DNA from: Candidatus Phycosocius bacilliformis
GTDB taxonomy: Bacteria > Pseudomonadota > Alphaproteobacteria > Caulobacterales > Aquidulcibacteraceae
Assembly (NCBI RefSeq): GCF_003112735.1
Contig: NZ_BFBR01000003.1
Coordinates: 62,001-126,000 of the forward strand
Direction of reading: 5' to 3'
DNA length: 64,000 nt
Below, in pieces: positions 8,166 to 14,615 of this stretch (the first letter of the stretch is position 1; each line of letters opens with the position of its first letter). Made by a program: the position numbers and the translations under genes. Below the pieces are notes generated by a model. It was not told the origin of the DNA. It searched no databases and worked only from the letters and a program-made list of their open reading frames with translations.

Positions 8166-8789
8166 CTAAACCCGCGCCAAACGCCTCTGGCTTGACCGTT
8201 TGAGGCTTGCAGCATCATCCACATCTTCCAACTCACGCAAATAGCCGACGCGCCAGCCTCTTGGCAAAACTGCCAGCGTGTCTGCCAATGTGTGCGGGCT
8301 TGACCAGCGCACTGGGGCAAGATGGGCCCGTCGCGCGGCCCGTGGCGTCATGCCGATCAGCCAATAGCCGCCATCTGTGGCTGGCCCCAATACCACATCA
8401 TGGCGCTTGAGCCGGCCGAAAGCCGCCGTGAGGTCAGCGGTCTTCAGGTCAGGCAAGTCCGAGCCGATGATGCACACCGGGCCACGACCAAAACGGCGCA
8501 AGGCCCTGGCCATGCGGTGTCCAAGATCACCCTTGCCCTGCCCAATGCGGGCAAGATCAGCGGGCCAAGCACCGGGAAAAGTGGCATGGATCGCCCGGTC
8601 CGGAGCCACCGCCAGCACACTGTCCCAGGCCGGCGATCTTGCGATGCGGCAGGTCAAAGCATCCAACCGCCGCTTGGTTCGCCAGGCAGCCACCGCGCCG
8701 ACCCCACGGGCAAGCCGTGTCTTGGCCTGGCCCAGACGGGGGGCTTTGGCAAAAATCAGCACATGGGGTCTGCCGGTCACCGGTACCAT
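8166..8789 (-). CDS. TIGR04282/DUF2064 arsenosugar-type glycosyltransferase (GT-A fold)
   Basis: The protein reads like the DUF2064/TIGR04282 family: an N-terminal nucleotide-binding motif (VLIFAKAPRLGQAKTRLARG), the central IGSDLPDL motif carrying the metal-binding Asp, then GPATDGGYWLIGM. These proteins are annotated as arsenosugar-biosynthesis glycosyltransferases because some members lie in arsenosugar operons; the true substrate here is unknown. I chose the ATG at 8789 because the nucleotide-binding strand begins a few residues later and the start overlaps the end of the upstream glycosyltransferase gene by 13 bases, which indicates translational coupling. The last gene of a four-gene minus-strand operon. 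Confidence 0.87.
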   Translation of the reverse strand: MVPVTGRPHVLIFAKAPRLGQAKTRLARGVGAVAAWRTKRRLDALTCRIARSPAWDSVLAVAPDRAIHATFPGAWPADLARIGQGKGDLGHRMARALRRFGRGPVCIIGSDLPDLKTADLTAAFGRLKRHDVVLGPATDGGYWLIGMTPRAARRAHLAPVRWSSPHTLADTLAVLPRGWRVGYLRELEDVDDAASLKRSSQRRLARV

Positions 8790-9472
8790 CCGCGCAGGCG
8801 CTCTGGCGAGACGCCACCATAAAAGCCTGCCAAAAGGGTGAGATTGCGCAGTGGCACAAACCACCAGCCCCCTGCGCGATAGCGGCTGGCACTGGTTTCG
8901 ACGCCGCAGGGCAAGCCACGCAGCCGCCCCCGTCCAAGACGACGGACCAGATCAACATCTTCCATCAGCGCCAAGGGCTTATAGCCGCCGATCTCATCAT
9001 AAAGGGTGCGGCTGATCACAAGACCCTGATCGCCATAGGGCAGCCCAAGGCACCGGGCGCGCAGATTGGCCCACCAAGCAATACGGCGCGCGGGCGCGGT
9101 TTGATCATCATAGGAGAGCGCAAAATAGCCAGCGTGATGCGGGGCTTGTTCGATGTGGGCCTGAATAGTGCTGACCCAATCTTGTGGCAGCACACAATCG
9201 CCATGGAGAAACATCAGCCAATCGCCTTTGGCCGCATTGGCCCCGGCGATGAGTTGGGTGCCGCGCCCGCGCCCTGCCGCGCCAACATCGAGAACCCGAC
9301 AGCCCATATCAAAGGCCAAGTCGCGGCTCTGATCGGTTGAGCCTGCATCCACCACCACCACATCTCGAATGAGACCCGCACTCAAGCCCGGGACAAGGGC
9401 CTCCAAACAGGCTGCCAAACGCGGCATGGCGTTCCAAGTGGGGATGACGATGGACAAGGGCGGGCGCGACAT
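8777..9472 (-). CDS. TIGR04283-type family 2 glycosyltransferase
   Basis: A GT2 domain starts at the N-terminus (LSIVIPTWNA), followed by VVVDAGSTDQS, the GRGTQL segment typical of TIGR04283, and FLHGDCVLP, the metal/donor site (most relatives have HAD; Gly replaces Ala here). LMEDVDLVRRL near the C-terminus supplies the acidic catalytic motif. It would transfer a sugar from a nucleotide donor; the acceptor is not evident. It lies 9 bases downstream of the YcgN gene and overlaps the DUF2064 gene. The pairing of TIGR04282 and TIGR04283 proteins is conserved in many bacteria, so they probably act in one pathway, but no arsenic or phosphonate gene is visible nearby. Confidence 0.9.
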   Translation of the reverse strand: MSRPPLSIVIPTWNAMPRLAACLEALVPGLSAGLIRDVVVVDAGSTDQSRDLAFDMGCRVLDVGAAGRGRGTQLIAGANAAKGDWLMFLHGDCVLPQDWVSTIQAHIEQAPHHAGYFALSYDDQTAPARRIAWWANLRARCLGLPYGDQGLVISRTLYDEIGGYKPLALMEDVDLVRRLGRGRLRGLPCGVETSASRYRAGGWWFVPLRNLTLLAGFYGGVSPERLRGWYR

Positions 9473-9932: not shown

Positions 9933-11186
9933 CTAACGCACAAATCGGGCTGCGATTTCGACATGAGCCGAAAAGCGGAATTGATCGAAGGTCTCAATCT
10001 CATCAAGCTTAAAGCCGGCATTGACCAGAATGCGTGCGTCGCGGGCAAAACTGGCCGGATCGCAGGACACATAGACGATAGTATTGACCGGCCCACGTGC
10101 AAGCTGAACGCACTGGGCCTCAGCCCCTGCGCGCGGGGGATCCAGCACAATTGCATCCAGGCCCTTCATTTCCAGAGGGGCGAGTGGCGCGCGAAACAGA
10201 TCACGGACCTCTGCGGTCAAGGTTCGCCCACCTGCCAGTCCGTCGGCTGCCTTTTTCAAGGCCGCAACCGCTTGAGGTTCATTCTCATAAGCACGCACTT
10301 GGGCTTTGTCTTTGAGGCGCAAGGCAAAGGTTCCAATCCCGGCAAACAGATCGGCCACCACACGGGCTCCTGCCGTCCAATCCAGAACTCGGGCCGCTAA
10401 TGCCTCCTCCCCGGCTTGGGTGGCCTGCAAGAAAGCGCCCGCGGGCAATTCGACCAGTGCGGGACCCATTTTCACCCGCGGTGTGACCCGGCTTAGGGCG
10501 GTCTCGCCATGCAGTGTGAGCCTGGCGATTTGGGTAGCCTCAACAAGGCCTGCCAGCTTTTCAAGGCCTTTGCGGTCAAACTTGGCCAACCGCCCTGCCT
10601 GACGCACATCCACATCCAGACCCACCGGGGTCTCCGTCACAAGCACATCAATGCCATCTTGTCGGGGGGCGAGGGCTTCAGCGATTTGGGCCAGACGTGG
10701 TAAGGCCGCCGCAAGACCGGGGGTTAGAACCGGGCAGACGGTGATCGGCTCAATCTGGTGACTGCGGGCTTGGGTAAAGCCGAACACAAAGCGCGGGCCA
10801 GTCCGTTTGCCATGCAAGGTGGCCCGCCGTCGCCCCGCCCCCCAGGCTGGCTGGCTGGGAGGGAGTTCCACCTCAATCCCAACGCGCTGAAGCGCCCGAC
10901 TGACCAAACCTGCTTTCCAAGCCAGATAAGGTTGTTCCGCCCAATGCTGGAGCGCGCAGCCACCGCAGCGGGTGAAGTGCGGACACACAGGATCAATCCG
11001 CTCAATCGAGGGTTCCAAAACGCGAACGAGACGGGCCCGGTCACCGCGTTGTTCTGCGTGAACCACCTCGCCGGGCAATGCAAAAGGCACATGGACAGCG
11101 CGGTCGTGATCACGGCTGACACCGTCTCCGCGGGCACCGACATGGGCGATGTGCAGCGTCTGTGTTTCCTGAATGAAATTCGTCAT
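9933..11186 (-). CDS. TrmA/RlmD-like RNA (uracil-5-)-methyltransferase
   Basis: 417 residues, with an N-terminal TRAM-like beta domain (about residues 10-60), a Fe-S ligand set (CPHFTRCGGCALQHW plus a downstream Cys), and a C-terminal SAM-binding domain with DLFAGIGTFALRL. The catalytic motif VSCDPASFARD contains the nucleophilic Cys that forms the covalent adduct with C6 of uracil. The family methylates U54 of tRNA or U747/U1939 of 23S rRNA; sequence alone does not tell which. It heads the minus-strand operon continuing into YcgN and the two glycosyltransferases. Confidence 0.93.
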   Translation of the reverse strand: MTNFIQETQTLHIAHVGARGDGVSRDHDRAVHVPFALPGEVVHAEQRGDRARLVRVLEPSIERIDPVCPHFTRCGGCALQHWAEQPYLAWKAGLVSRALQRVGIEVELPPSQPAWGAGRRRATLHGKRTGPRFVFGFTQARSHQIEPITVCPVLTPGLAAALPRLAQIAEALAPRQDGIDVLVTETPVGLDVDVRQAGRLAKFDRKGLEKLAGLVEATQIARLTLHGETALSRVTPRVKMGPALVELPAGAFLQATQAGEEALAARVLDWTAGARVVADLFAGIGTFALRLKDKAQVRAYENEPQAVAALKKAADGLAGGRTLTAEVRDLFRAPLAPLEMKGLDAIVLDPPRAGAEAQCVQLARGPVNTIVYVSCDPASFARDARILVNAGFKLDEIETFDQFRFSAHVEIAARFVR

Positions 11187-11295: not shown

Positions 11296-11871
11296 ATGCG
11301 TACATGGATTGTTTCAGCACTGGCTGCCAGCGTGGCATTGGCTGCCCCTGCATTGGCCTCGGCCCAAAATTATGACCGCGACTACCCGCCTTTTGGGCAA
11401 GTTTCGCAAGAATGCCAGCAGAGCGTCAATAATAATCGCTTGGCCGGTGGCGCGATTGGTGCCATCGCCGGGGCCGTGATCGGCAAGCAGGTCGCCAGCC
11501 GCAATGCCCGCACAGAAGGCCAGGTTTTAGGTGCCATCGTTGGCGCGGTCGCAGGGTCGCAAATTGGCAAAGCCCGTGTGGCTTGTGATGATCCAGCTTA
11601 CCGCGACTATGGCCCTGCCCCGCGTCCACAAGGCGCGCGTGACCCACGCGATCAATTCTCATACCAAGCGCCTGAGTTCCGTCCCAGCCGACGCGACCAT
11701 GACCATGCCGATCGTGATCGGATCTATCGTTCTGGCTATGTTGCCGCCCCTGTCGTGCGGCAGGAATGTGGCTGGGGCGAAGCTGCCCTTCGCCGCCCCG
11801 ATGGCATCTATCAACGCCAACAGGTCTGGATGTGCCGGGATAGTGATGGTGAGTGGCGCGTCATTGACTGA
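11296..11871 (+). CDS. Exported glycine-zipper protein with a C-terminal Cys/Trp domain (trio member A)
   Basis: A signal peptide (MRTWIVSALAASVALAAP, cleavage near ASA-QNY) precedes two glycine-zipper segments (residues about 50-64 and 75-88) of the 2TM/Rick_17kDa type, ending in VAC at 95-97. A basic, Asp/His/Arg-rich linker follows, then a compact C-terminal region (residues 158-187) with the pattern C-x-W-x4-L-x2-PDG-x6-VWMC-x4-G-x-W. The zipper, down to the VAC, recurs with identical spacing in the protein at 13210, and the C-terminal pattern recurs at the end of the protein at 12112. A strong ribosome site (AAAAGGAG) precedes the ATG, and a strong terminator closes the gene. Probably an outer-membrane or periplasmic protein; function unknown. 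Confidence 0.9.
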   Translation: MRTWIVSALAASVALAAPALASAQNYDRDYPPFGQVSQECQQSVNNNRLAGGAIGAIAGAVIGKQVASRNARTEGQVLGAIVGAVAGSQIGKARVACDDPAYRDYGPAPRPQGARDPRDQFSYQAPEFRPSRRDHDHADRDRIYRSGYVAAPVVRQECGWGEAALRRPDGIYQRQQVWMCRDSDGEWRVID

Positions 11872-11898
11872 TCAAACGCTCAATCGCTGAACCAAACT

Positions 11899-11932
11899 GA
11901 ATGGGTGCAGACTTTGTTTGCACCCATTTTTT
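11899..11932 (+). terminator. Rho-independent terminator of the glycine-zipper gene
   Basis: A perfect 9-bp stem (ATGGGTGCA at 11901-11909 with TGCACCCAT at 11919-11927), a 9-base loop, and a run of six T at 11927-11932. It lies 30 bases after the stop codon at 11871, so member A of the trio is transcribed separately from the next two genes. Confidence 0.92.
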
Positions 11933-12063
11933 GCACTCCTTGCAGATTACTTGACCTCTGGTAACCGAAAACTGCAAGTTGTTTTCCCCGATTGGGTGAA
12001 GGCCAGATGCAATTAAATAATTCGCTGGTATAGTTACCAAATTAAATCGATAGAACTTCGTTA

Positions 12064-12107
12064 GATAGCAAAGTCTCCACTTTGCTGTCTTTGTCCTAGA
12101 AGAGGAC
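12064..12107 (+). promoter_or_regulatory. Leader hairpins, one over the ribosome-binding site, before 12112
   Basis: Two short inverted repeats lie directly upstream of the start. AGCAAAGT (12067-12074) pairs with ACTTTGCT (12079-12086) around a 4-base loop, extended by imperfect pairs. GTCCT (12093-12097) pairs with AGGAC (12103-12107), and the latter is the likely Shine-Dalgarno sequence for the ATG at 12112. Folding of the second hairpin would hide the ribosome site. Whether this regulates anything is an inference; the 180 bases upstream are AT-rich relative to the surroundings and probably contain the promoter. Confidence 0.4.
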
Positions 12108-12111
12108 CATA

Positions 12112-13182
12112 ATGATGCGGTGTGTTTGGATTGGTGTTTTATTGTCCGTTTGGCTGGCTGGCCCGGTGGCGGCTGCCTGTGAGGGCATGCAGTGCCAATC
12201 AGCCCCAGCCGAAGCCAAGAAAGCACACGTCACGCCTGCGCCAATCCCGAGCATCGCCAAAGCCGCGACTGCTTCAAGCCCAGCCCCCGCGAAAGCTGAC
12301 ATGTCAGCACCCACTGCGGCATCCACCCCCGCATCAGGGCCCAAGCCCGCTGCAAATCCGACGCCTGTCCCCGTGCCATTTCCGAAGACCAGTTCGGCTG
12401 CCAGCTCCCCGGGTCAGGCCGCAACAACGCCCGGTCCAAAGGCTCAATCCAGCCCGCAAACAGGCCAGCCTGCAGGCCAAGCGCGCTCAGACCGATCAGT
12501 CTATCGCACAGGCTATCGGGCTGGTTATCGGGTAGGCTATCGTGATGGCTCACGCCAAGCGCGCGCGACATCTTGCCGGTGCAAAACCGCCTCCGTGCGT
12601 TCAGGGCGGTCCAAGTCAGCGCGTTCGGCCCAGGTGAAACATCGCCCGACCAGTCGCCATGCCGCGGCAACACCTGTACCCGTGCCAGTTCCCGTGCCAG
12701 CCCCCGTGCCTGTGCCAGCGCCCGTTCCTGTGCTAGTCCCGACCCCTGCACCAACACCCGCCCCAGTACCTGTAGCGCCGCCAAACCCGGCTCCGGCTCC
12801 CATCTATGTTCCAGCCCCTCAGGTGGAAAAACCTGCCGTCTCCCACAAACCCAAGACAGAGCATGGTGTTAAGGATCGGGCGACAGCTTATGGGGCTGCC
12901 CAATCAGGCAATAGCCTGTCGCTTGGCACGCTCTTTCATGATCGCCAGCTCAGCACGTCGACAAGCCAGAGCTCGACCAGCACTTATCAAAGCTGGACCG
13001 GGCAAACAGGCCAAATGGGCTGGCAAAGCCCGCCTGCCCCGCCCCCGGCCTGCCAGCAAACGTGCCAGCAGATATGCAGTTGGCAGATCCAAGTCTTGAC
13101 CGCGCCTGATGGGTCGAACCCGCAACCTTACTATGTCTGGCTGTGTCAGACGCCACAGGGATGGCGGCCACCTGGTTATTGA
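12112..13182 (+). CDS. Exported Pro/Ala-rich protein with a C-terminal Cys/Trp domain (trio member B)
   Basis: 356 residues starting MMRCVWIGVLLSVWLAGPVA with a signal peptide. Long low-complexity Pro/Ala stretches fill residues 25-125 and 180-235. Between them is a GYR repeat (VYRTGYRAGYRVGYRDG, about residues 129-145) and a basic Ser/Arg segment. The last 35 residues have three Cys in CQQTCQQIC and then the pattern C-x-W-x4-L-x2-PDG-x7-VWLC-x4-GW (residues 322-351), matching the end of the protein at 11296. The Pro-rich parts probably span the periplasm or cell wall. The next gene follows at once and may be co-transcribed. No enzymatic motif is visible and the function is unknown. Confidence 0.85.
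   Translation: MMRCVWIGVLLSVWLAGPVAAACEGMQCQSAPAEAKKAHVTPAPIPSIAKAATASSPAPAKADMSAPTAASTPASGPKPAANPTPVPVPFPKTSSAASSPGQAATTPGPKAQSSPQTGQPAGQARSDRSVYRTGYRAGYRVGYRDGSRQARATSCRCKTASVRSGRSKSARSAQVKHRPTSRHAAATPVPVPVPVPAPVPVPAPVPVLVPTPAPTPAPVPVAPPNPAPAPIYVPAPQVEKPAVSHKPKTEHGVKDRATAYGAAQSGNSLSLGTLFHDRQLSTSTSQSSTSTYQSWTGQTGQMGWQSPPAPPPACQQTCQQICSWQIQVLTAPDGSNPQPYYVWLCQTPQGWRPPGY
12670..12790 (+). repeat. Degenerate hexamer repeat encoding Val-Pro/Ala-Pro dipeptides
   Basis: About 20 imperfect copies of a CCNGTNCC-like unit encode alternating Val-Pro and Ala-Pro dipeptides inside the gene at 12112. Such repeats tend to vary in copy number between strains. Confidence 0.7.
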
Positions 13183-13209
13183 GGCTGCTCATTGAAGAAA
13201 GTCGATTTT

Positions 13210-13857
13210 ATGAACAGATTTCAAAATTCACCAATTCTAAGGCCTCATTTTCCGGGCATATCGCGCCAATGTGGCGTCACGCTGGTGATTGTGGCAGCGC
13301 TGATGGTGCCAATGGATGCAGGGGCGATGCGCCGGGCGATAGGTACGCCACTCATCTCGGATCCCAATTGCCAAATCATCATTAACCCCAACACAGCATC
13401 TGGGGAGATGATCAGTTCGCTTGAAGACGGCATGACGGGCAAACTTCTGGCAGCCACGGGGATGCAGCCCAAAGGCATGGCCTTAGGTATTGCGATGGGG
13501 ACGGTTTTGGGGGCACAGATGCGCGGCCACCAAGTTGCTTGTCCCAGTCCACCCCCGCAAGCCGCCTATCCAACCCCGGCTCAGATGGCGAATGGTGTAA
13601 GTCCAGCAAGCGCAAATGCGCAGAGGGCGGTGGATTGGTATCAACCTTCGTCCAATTCCTATTATGGACGTGAGCGGCGAGGACCATTGATCAGCGCACC
13701 AGCCCCAATCAGTCGGCCTGCCCAAGTGCCACGCGATTCCTATGTCGGATATGCCTACCCCCTACAGCCGACGATGCAGCAGGGCCAGGTGCCGATTGTC
13801 GCGATTCCAGTCTATCCGGGGACGGCCCCGCAAGCTGCCCCAGTCCCCCCGCGCTAA
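13210..13857 (+). CDS. Exported glycine-zipper/Pro-rich protein (trio member C)
   Basis: A 215-residue protein with a hydrophobic segment at about residues 22-39 (GVTLVIVAALMVPMDAGA) that looks like a signal peptide after a longer than usual N-terminus. Residues 89-111 form a glycine zipper, GMALGIAMGTVLGAQ then HQVAC, with the same spacing of Gly and the VAC as the second zipper of the protein at 11296. The remainder is Pro/Tyr/Gln-rich. I chose the ATG at 13210, with a GAAGAAAG ribosome site; a TTG at 13192 would add six residues. It starts 27 bases after the stop of the gene at 12112. Unknown function; probably membrane-associated or cell-envelope. Confidence 0.8.
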   Translation: MNRFQNSPILRPHFPGISRQCGVTLVIVAALMVPMDAGAMRRAIGTPLISDPNCQIIINPNTASGEMISSLEDGMTGKLLAATGMQPKGMALGIAMGTVLGAQMRGHQVACPSPPPQAAYPTPAQMANGVSPASANAQRAVDWYQPSSNSYYGRERRGPLISAPAPISRPAQVPRDSYVGYAYPLQPTMQQGQVPIVAIPVYPGTAPQAAPVPPR

Positions 13858-13877: not shown

Positions 13878-14615
13878 TTAACCGAGGCGGCGGGCATGGA
13901 GCAGCCATTCGCGGTTACCATCACCGCCAACGATTGGGCTCTCCATCATATCTAAAACCGCAAACCCGGACAGCCCATCAAGGGCTTGACGGGTTTCCTC
14001 TGCAACCTGGGCGGCAACATCGGGTGCAACCAGTCCGCGCTTACCCACGCGGTTTGGACCGGCCTGAAACTGTGGCTTGACCAATGCGACCAGATCCGCG
14101 CGCGGTGCCACGAGGTCCAACACAGACGGTAGAATTTTTTCGAGCCCGATGAAGCTGACATCGATGACAATCAGGTCGGGAAGCGGATCACCCAAATCGC
14201 TGGCAGACAATGTGCGTGCATCGGTACTCTCCCGCAAGGTGATGGCCGGATGCCCGCGCAAGCTGACATCAAGCTGGTCGCGGCCGACGTCAACGGCCAA
14301 AACATGGGCCGCCCCCCGCAAGATGAGGACTTGGGTGAATCCACCGGTCGATGCGCCAATGTCGAGGCAAAATCGCCCCTCTGGGTCCACCCCAAACCGA
14401 TCAAGGGCCGCGGCCAGCTTAAGTCCTGCGCGCGAGACATAGGGATGAGCCTGTCCGGCGGAAAGCTCTCCATCCGGGTCAAGCAGGTCGGCAGGTTTGC
14501 GTATGATCCGACCAGCACTCTGGACCAGACCGGCTTCAATCGCCTCCCGCGCTTTTGCCCGGGTCGGCATCAGGCCTTTGGCAACCAATAACAGATCCGC
14601 GCGCATCTTGCTCAT
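13878..14615 (-). CDS. tlyA: TlyA family rRNA (cytidine-2'-O)-methyltransferase
   Basis: 245 residues with an N-terminal S4 RNA-binding domain (RADLLLVAKGLMPTRAKARE) and a FtsJ-like Rossmann methyltransferase. The SAM site is LDIGASTGGFTQVLI, followed by VDVGRDQL and VIDVSFIGL, consistent with the K-D-K-E catalytic arrangement of this fold. TlyA proteins 2'-O-methylate cytidines of 16S and/or 23S rRNA; the short form may act on 23S only. Alphaproteobacteria often carry it beside dxs, but dxs is not here. It converges with the gene at 13210 and is separated from the permease by a terminator. Confidence 0.93.
   Translation of the reverse strand: MSKMRADLLLVAKGLMPTRAKAREAIEAGLVQSAGRIIRKPADLLDPDGELSAGQAHPYVSRAGLKLAAALDRFGVDPEGRFCLDIGASTGGFTQVLILRGAAHVLAVDVGRDQLDVSLRGHPAITLRESTDARTLSASDLGDPLPDLIVIDVSFIGLEKILPSVLDLVAPRADLVALVKPQFQAGPNRVGKRGLVAPDVAAQVAEETRQALDGLSGFAVLDMMESPIVGGDGNREWLLHARRLG

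Follow-up and report, generated by a model that had tools for sequence, protein, structure and literature searches.

What brought three adjacent genes for secreted proteins to share two small modules in different combinations, and what such a set could be for, is the question raised by a locus of Candidatus Phycosocius bacilliformis (order Caulobacterales). The window, that is the whole stretch of 64,000 nucleotides that was analysed (assembly GCF_003112735.1, contig NZ_BFBR01000003.1, positions 62,001 to 126,000), comes from a genome of 3,325,274 bases in 21 contigs. An earlier note on this DNA had pointed to three secreted open reading frames (ORFs), here called A, B and C, which share a glycine zipper and a C-terminal Cys/Trp pattern. 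All three ORFs are present on the + strand, their signal peptides are of the Sec type by inspection, and both links between them were confirmed by profiles. The second pattern is called CW below, for the C-terminal Cys/Trp hairpin module. Local duplication with domain splitting, as the note had suggested, is well supported by our results. The genes and their modules are as follows.

11296..11871, + strand: gene A, 191 aa; signal peptide, Cys-bracketed glycine zipper, Tyr/Arg/Asp-rich linker and C-terminal CW hairpin
11413..11586, + strand: zipper of A, Cys40 to Cys97 (C-x56-C), glycine zipper 2TM (PF05433)
11761..11868, + strand: CW of A (Cys158, Trp160 ... Trp178, Cys180 ... G-x-W), predicted beta hairpin
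12112..13182, + strand: gene B, 356 aa; signal peptide, basic low-complexity middle, DRAxxYxA segment and C-terminal CW, with no zipper
13069..13179, + strand: CW of B (Cys322, Trp324 ... Trp343, Cys345 ... GW), predicted hairpin in a single-sequence model
13210..13857, + strand: gene C, 215 aa, ATG start; signal peptide, Cys-bracketed zipper and WYQPSxxSYYGRE segment, with no CW
13369..13542, + strand: zipper of C, Cys54 to Cys111 (C-x56-C), Gly-poor in the window species

The zipper links A to C. The two zippers matched each other at 7e-10 in BLASTP, and the profile-profile comparison gave a probability of 99.6 % (E 3.7e-24) over 62 columns without a gap. Twelve A, ten B and eleven C proteins, selected from positive genomes and excluding a fused B-C gene of G004, were aligned. 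With the A zipper profile, 11/11 C proteins scored above all 400 of their local shuffles, as did 12/12 A proteins with that of C. The bracketing cysteines lie 57 residues apart in 12/12 A and 10/11 C zippers (the C protein of L094 is one shorter), and both are invariant among the aligned A proteins. The cysteine of the VAC ending described earlier is conserved, and the VAC triplet itself is not, being replaced by VTC, VEC, VSC or AAC in relatives. The zipper of A scored 36 bits against PF05433, whose cut-off is 24.2, and so belongs to the glycine zipper 2TM family; this family was matched by all aligned A proteins when E values as high as 5 were allowed (best 1.8e-10) and by 10/11 C proteins within an E limit of 0.1 (best 8.9e-5). 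Neither the B protein of the window nor any aligned B protein matched PF05433, and the zipper profile found no match in 10/10 B proteins.

CW links A to B. BLASTP of the two ends gave 6e-4 and the profile-profile comparison 95.6 % with E 1e-8. The B-CW profile outscored all 400 shuffles in 11/12 A proteins, the twelfth (L099) being reached by 1/400; the A-CW profile did so in 8/10 B proteins, the exceptions being L092, reached by 1/400, and L088, reached by 51/400 and so within its shuffles. On the 11 C proteins the CW profile scored at most 0.4 bits, but in L094 just 3/400 shuffles were as high. With this and the zipper result on B, the assignment of CW only to B and of the zipper only to C is nearly clean. 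The arrangement C-x-[WYF]...[WYF]-x-C was found in 21/22 CW ends (11/12 A, 10/10 B), with a variable spacing of 17 to 23 between the cysteines. The residue numbers are symmetric, with 158+180 = 160+178 in A and 322+345 = 324+343 in B, as expected of a beta hairpin whose two strands are bridged by a disulphide and, next to it, by a pair of aromatic residues. AlphaFold2 placed strands at 156-166 and 172-182 in A, where 10-residue blocks had predicted local distance difference test (pLDDT) values of 66, 81, 82 and 75, and at 323-330 and 339-347 in B, with blocks of 67-79. The A model was built on 3 rows, of which the third (Asticcacaulis, L101) is a zipper protein lacking CW, and the B model on 1 row; only the hairpins of these models were interpreted, since the rest was of low confidence (mean 48.7 in A and 48.2 in B), except a Pro-rich coil at about 190-230 of B with blocks of 66-75. 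Four cysteines are contained in each of the 12 A proteins, and they would be bonded within the zipper and within CW. EGF-like Pfam matches on CW ends (hEGF in 3/18, best 0.011) were rejected as coincidences of Cys spacing.

The distribution of the genes and the order of the locus bear on the origin of the modules. Among 60 genomes of the window's family an A match was found in 56, and B in 15. Full C matches (E < 1e-38) were found in the same 15 genomes, a fused gene supplying both B and C in G004; with weaker matches, largely A zippers, the C profile matched 56/60 overall. The 15 genomes are 8/9 members of the genus including the window, 5/5 of genus g13 and single genomes of g4 and g6, and B and C are absent from the remaining 45/60. 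Candidatus P. spiralis is the sole member of the genus without B and C, and its A is followed directly by TlyA. In wider searches up to 31 candidates per genome were scored for CW and up to 11 for B in the order, and up to 17 for A in the class, so that the counts are lower bounds. B was found in at least 14/249 genomes of the order, all within the window's family (G011, positive in the family search, was not among them), CW profile matches in at least 83/249, and the A profile at E < 1e-8 in at least 16/190 genomes of the class, three of them in the order. None of the 13 A-profile matches outside the order was full-length; six span the zipper to about 176-179 of 195 and the others are shorter. 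In the window genome itself, CW matched only A and B (31/74 candidates scored), and the A profile at 1e-8 only A and C among the candidates scored.

The locus is bounded by two conserved flanks:

9933..11186, - strand: upstream divergent flank, RumA/RlmD-type 23S rRNA uracil methyltransferase, from NCBIfam and the conserved flank (top matches are RlmD/RumA models, under their equivalog cut-offs)
13878..14615, - strand: downstream convergent flank, TlyA-family rRNA methyltransferase (TIGR00478 over its cut-off; conserved flank)

We inspected 53 loci, which were all chosen for a zipper or CW match and are therefore not a random sample. RumA upstream and/or TlyA downstream of the zipper or CW genes was found in 42 of them, from three families, and both in 28, counted within the fetched stretch and allowing other small genes in between. 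The 11 loci without these flanks come from five g13 genomes, G010, f3 G073 + G069, G078, and f2 G179 + G127; an amino-acid permease lies downstream in 4/5 g13 genomes. The order A-B-C is kept in four genera (g1, g4, g6, g13). One zipper or zipper+CW gene occurs in f3, another family of the order, and in most of f1, the window's family; a single A-like gene was seen in 8/10 f3 loci inspected, and the CW end was below threshold in several single-gene loci. Two genes stand at the locus in the f4 genera g29, g19, g26, g27 and g28, and also in g48 at a looser threshold, and three zipper genes lacking CW stand in 2/3 loci of g24 (f4). The module combinations at the RumA/TlyA locus include zipper+CW pairs in one family, a three-zipper set in a genus of that family, CW-only copies on two occasions in the family of the window, and a B-C fusion in one congener.

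Phylogenies of RumA and of the zipper agree with a local origin. The RumA tree has 22 rows; the 7 that stand for loci with A, B and C all fall in one clade (99/98), with Candidatus P. spiralis nested inside, which reads as one gain and one nested loss of B and C. The C zippers form one branch (100/96) in a zipper tree of 70 rows and 62 columns, and this branch attaches, with moderate support (87/82), near an A protein from that clade, the one of G011; 21/70 rows were ungrouped, one of them, L074, being an A copy. Since the genomes with B and those with C are the same 15, in one clade of the RumA tree with one loss, the two genes probably originated a single time, next to A. In g13 a further duplication with loss of the zipper is visible, and modules have been joined as well as split:

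L089:7302-8060 (G025), L090:7675-8238 (G029) and L092:7455-8015 (G034): in g13, one more gene upstream of A, with zipper+CW in G025 and CW only in the others
L083:5974-7068 (G004, a congener), - strand: fused B-C gene, one 364-aa frame

The extra tandem copy of A in G025 is 38 % identical to the A of G029 (1e-31). In G029 the protein encoded in the corresponding position has kept the CW end (1e-15) and the signal region (1e-8) and has lost the zipper, and G034 has the same CW-only gene. In G004 the fusion point is a GGMI-coding stretch, which is found in both B and C of the congeners L081 and L085 and is not in the B of L082; the fused frame lacks the CW of B, the signal peptide of C and the first zipper Cys. 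The duplication suggested earlier is therefore borne out by the common locus and order, the one gain on the RumA tree, the single branch of C zippers and the second case in g13, and the profile comparisons proposed with it gave significant zipper and CW similarity, beyond shuffled composition. A, B and C are all under purifying selection among congeners, with pairwise ratios of nonsynonymous to synonymous substitution (dN/dS) of 0.05-0.14, 0.09-0.19 and 0.07-0.18, respectively, in pairs excluding the window species; the ratios are rough because dS exceeds 1 in many pairs.

Other features of the three genes are listed next.

11899..11929, + strand: intrinsic terminator hairpin 3' of A, followed by a T run (fold of 43 nt)
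12497..12542, + strand: 12-nt tandem repeat of B encoding YRxGYRxGY
12679..12741, + strand: 12/18-nt tandem repeat of B encoding a PVPV/PA stretch, mostly gaps in the other nine aligned B proteins
12874..12897, + strand: conserved segment DRATAYGA of B, with A257, Y260 and A262 invariant in 10/10
13636..13686, + strand: conserved segment WYQPSSNSYYGRERRGP of C, with W143, Y144, S147, Y152, G153 and G158 invariant in 11/11

The 43-nt fold after A has -21 kcal/mol and z -5.8, with 0/200 shuffles as low, and it was overlooked by a pattern scan for terminators. B and C are separated by 27 bases by their coordinates, and an alternative mechanical start of C is a TTG at 13192. B is basic, with a pI of 10.0 in the window species and 9.7-11.7 in 10/10 B proteins, and has a Cys23/Cys28 pair at its mature N-terminus. 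A YR[ST]GY segment had been taken as common to A and B; the strings exist, but their likeness is at chance level (E 0.54), they are not kept in relatives of A, and in B they are part of the 12-nt repeat, which is the source of the apparent similarity. The C proteins have WYxPSxxSYYG as a conserved segment. Pfam gave no known domain for the B and C of the window, and the sole NCBIfam match, of B to FliH, was rejected, its 13.7 bits being far under the cut-off of 180. The window species combines a C with an eroded zipper and without the C-terminal Cys pair with a B in which the third CW Cys is missing and extra Cys are present. The loss of the pair in C and of the third Cys in B, a single event, are perhaps linked.

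The explanation that we favour, at a probability of roughly 45 % for the whole, joins duplication and module splitting to a layer in the outer membrane or at the surface whose hub would be A. Its origin part rests on sequence. A would be the old member, a secreted protein of Caulobacterales encoded between RumA and TlyA, with a disulphide-bracketed zipper and a small CW disulphide hairpin. Before one clade within the window's family diverged, A was apparently copied in tandem, one copy then shedding the zipper to become B and the other CW to become C. In the proposed mechanism, A and C would each use the zipper hairpin, tied at its base by the C-x56-C disulphide, to enter the outer membrane or lie packed against it, and the hairpins would associate, as has been proposed for SlyB-type zippers. 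CW would act as a hairpin with a cross-strand disulphide and an aromatic pair, through which the zipper-less, basic and flexible B might dock on A, and C could likewise dock on A by the zippers. The trio would then form a modular outer-membrane or surface layer, in which A is a two-ended hub, C extends the zipper part and B links the layer to peptidoglycan, lipopolysaccharide or extracellular polymer. That the three proteins belong to a single envelope structure, as first suggested from the sequence, is plausible, and the predicted site of their action is probably the outer surface of the cell. A more specific form, in which zipper and CW are independent docking modules of a two-plug envelope assembly, A is the hub, B and C are alternative ends and the A:B:C ratio tunes a surface polymer, seems unlikely to us.

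Several points weigh against this explanation. The C protein of the window species has no Pfam match, its zipper is eroded, with the longest branch among the C rows (2.33), and it lacks the C-terminal Cys pair that is present in 9/11 aligned C proteins. AlphaFold2 modelled the zipper of A as a helical hairpin (39-67, 72-97) with pLDDT mostly below or around 50. With a terminator of its own, A does not have to share a transcript with B and C. The RumA tree is a tree of one gene, rooted at midpoint, in which the g13 rows are of odd composition, and the zipper tree, with 62 columns and 31/62 inner branches open, is too short to root C firmly. On the tree, the joint presence of B and C amounts to a single gain and a single loss and not to a series of independent events. 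Moreover, A, B, C and their aligned relatives have no conserved lipobox by inspection, which sets them apart from SlyB.

The same facts can be read in another way, which is possible if doubtful: A, B and C may be lineage-specific paralogues that have diverged into separate envelope proteins, their neighbourhood and co-occurrence just reflecting the tandem origin. The single gain and single loss that account for all co-occurrence fit this, as do the separate terminator of A, the absence of B and C from 45/60 family genomes of which 56/60 have an A match, and the middle regions, which are unlike in length and composition. What speaks for a common role instead is that B and C keep their order beside A in four genera, are jointly missing from Candidatus P. 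spiralis, and retain the shared modules under purifying selection. That joint absence has also a bearing on the idea that the trio serves life on algae, as Tyr/Gly/Pro-rich, disulphide-closed adhesion or matrix proteins sticking to algal extracellular polymer. The genus is reported to live with algae (PMC5946039; PMC10008586), and Candidatus P. spiralis, which is burrowing and has lost its tad pili (PMC10008586), is also the member without B and C; the high pI of all ten B proteins would suit such a role. However, Candidatus P. spiralis has a reduced genome and stands for just one loss, B and C are carried as well by genera that are not known here to live with algae (g4, g6 and g13), and no adhesin domain was matched in domain searches of A, B and C, so we consider algal adhesion rather improbable.

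Contact-dependent killing of the CdzC/CdzD kind is highly improbable. According to PMC5380434, CdzC and CdzD, from the caulobacterium Caulobacter crescentus, are glycine-zipper proteins of the cell surface, encoded with an adjacent type I secretion system and an immunity gene, cdzI, that has no obvious homologues. They measure 86 and 84 aa there, whereas A, B and C have 191, 356 and 215 aa and Sec-type signal peptides; no type I secretion gene was found in the nine neighbour ORFs scanned, to which that search was limited; and the trio locus is kept across families, whereas many Cdz systems were apparently acquired horizontally.

Those nine ORFs (6.2-17.6 kb) gave methyltransferases, a permease, YcgN, QueF, an M24 peptidase, a transglycosylase and two arsenosugar-type glycosyltransferase models. 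Beyond YcgN and RumA, at 8169-9472, two adjacent genes are over the cut-offs of the arsenosugar biosynthesis glycosyltransferase models TIGR04282 and TIGR04283. A defence system at the locus was considered and rejected (0 PADLOC families). In relatives, a pair of proteins of secreted type, mostly with zipper+CW, is encoded next to TlyA and/or RumA at the f4 loci L177-L184, L187, L215 and L216, where the first ORF has 384-568 aa. The g24 loci L096 and L097 hold a zipper trio near TlyA whose middle protein has two zippers and 16 Cys, with a repeated C-P-x-G-T-x5-G-x-C unit in L097. Zipper proteins elsewhere in Caulobacterales genomes, at L251 (G093), L250 (G077), L254 (G089) and L249 (G013), end in a tail C ... 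C-x-(3-5)-G-x-[WY], and a zipper plus a Cys tail may be a wider theme.

The conserved chromosomal place shows a family losing and recombining two modules more than once. The single-module proteins B and C make the function of the modules testable one at a time, and the single A-like gene of f3 may open the locus to genetics in a relative that is easier to handle. To our knowledge, glycine-zipper proteins of the 17-kDa antigen-like type are common in Alphaproteobacteria, mostly without known function. The families are of known kinds, and the split, its conserved place and its recurrence are the new part within the literature searched. In that literature, which mostly left out subscription papers, no description of the modular split, the conserved place or the repeated occurrence was found, nor is the split described in the available parts of PMC5380434, PMC10008586, PMC12700997, PMC13067283, PMC13082787, PMC8224329 and PMC6538847; in those of PMC8224329 and PMC6538847 glycine zippers appear in the reference lists only.

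As compared to known systems, the trio shares with CdzC and CdzD the glycine zippers on secreted proteins and the bacterial order, and differs in its larger proteins, its other export route by inspection, its conserved locus and the scanned neighbours, which hold no type I secretion gene. The C-terminal domain of the 17 kDa surface antigens is another comparison. The CW end matched 17kDa_Anti_2 (PF16998) in 3/3 f4 genomes under the cut-off (5e-5 to 5.4e-4), and one f4 protein gave a further sub-cut-off match at 0.0033, whereas A and B of f1 had no match. None of 15 genomes exceeded the curated cut-off, and sub-threshold matches at the same lax threshold were also seen in 7/14 control genomes; PF16587, a 17 kDa common-antigen family, was matched by 1/18 CW ends at 0.084. 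Judged by these sequence matches, the CW end looks remotely related to that domain. SlyB is a lipoprotein that forms ring-shaped oligomers in the outer membrane, according to PMC13067283. The solved chain closest to the A profile was SlyB 7ojf, a weak match at E 0.068; a prion-protein match (E 0.3) was taken as composition, and the B and C profiles found nothing under E 0.77 among solved structures. We take SlyB to be a member of PF05433 (Rick_17kDa_Anti), the glycine zipper 2TM family whose cut-off the zipper of A exceeds; unlike that family and SlyB, A has Cys at both zipper ends (C-x56-C), a CW end and the module-swapped neighbours B and C. Because of the PF05433 match, the weak best structure and the likeness of f4 CW ends to PF16998, A may be read as a disulphide-stabilised relative, in Caulobacterales, of the zipper 2TM and 17 kDa antigens, non-lipidated by inspection, from which B and C would be single-module derivatives.

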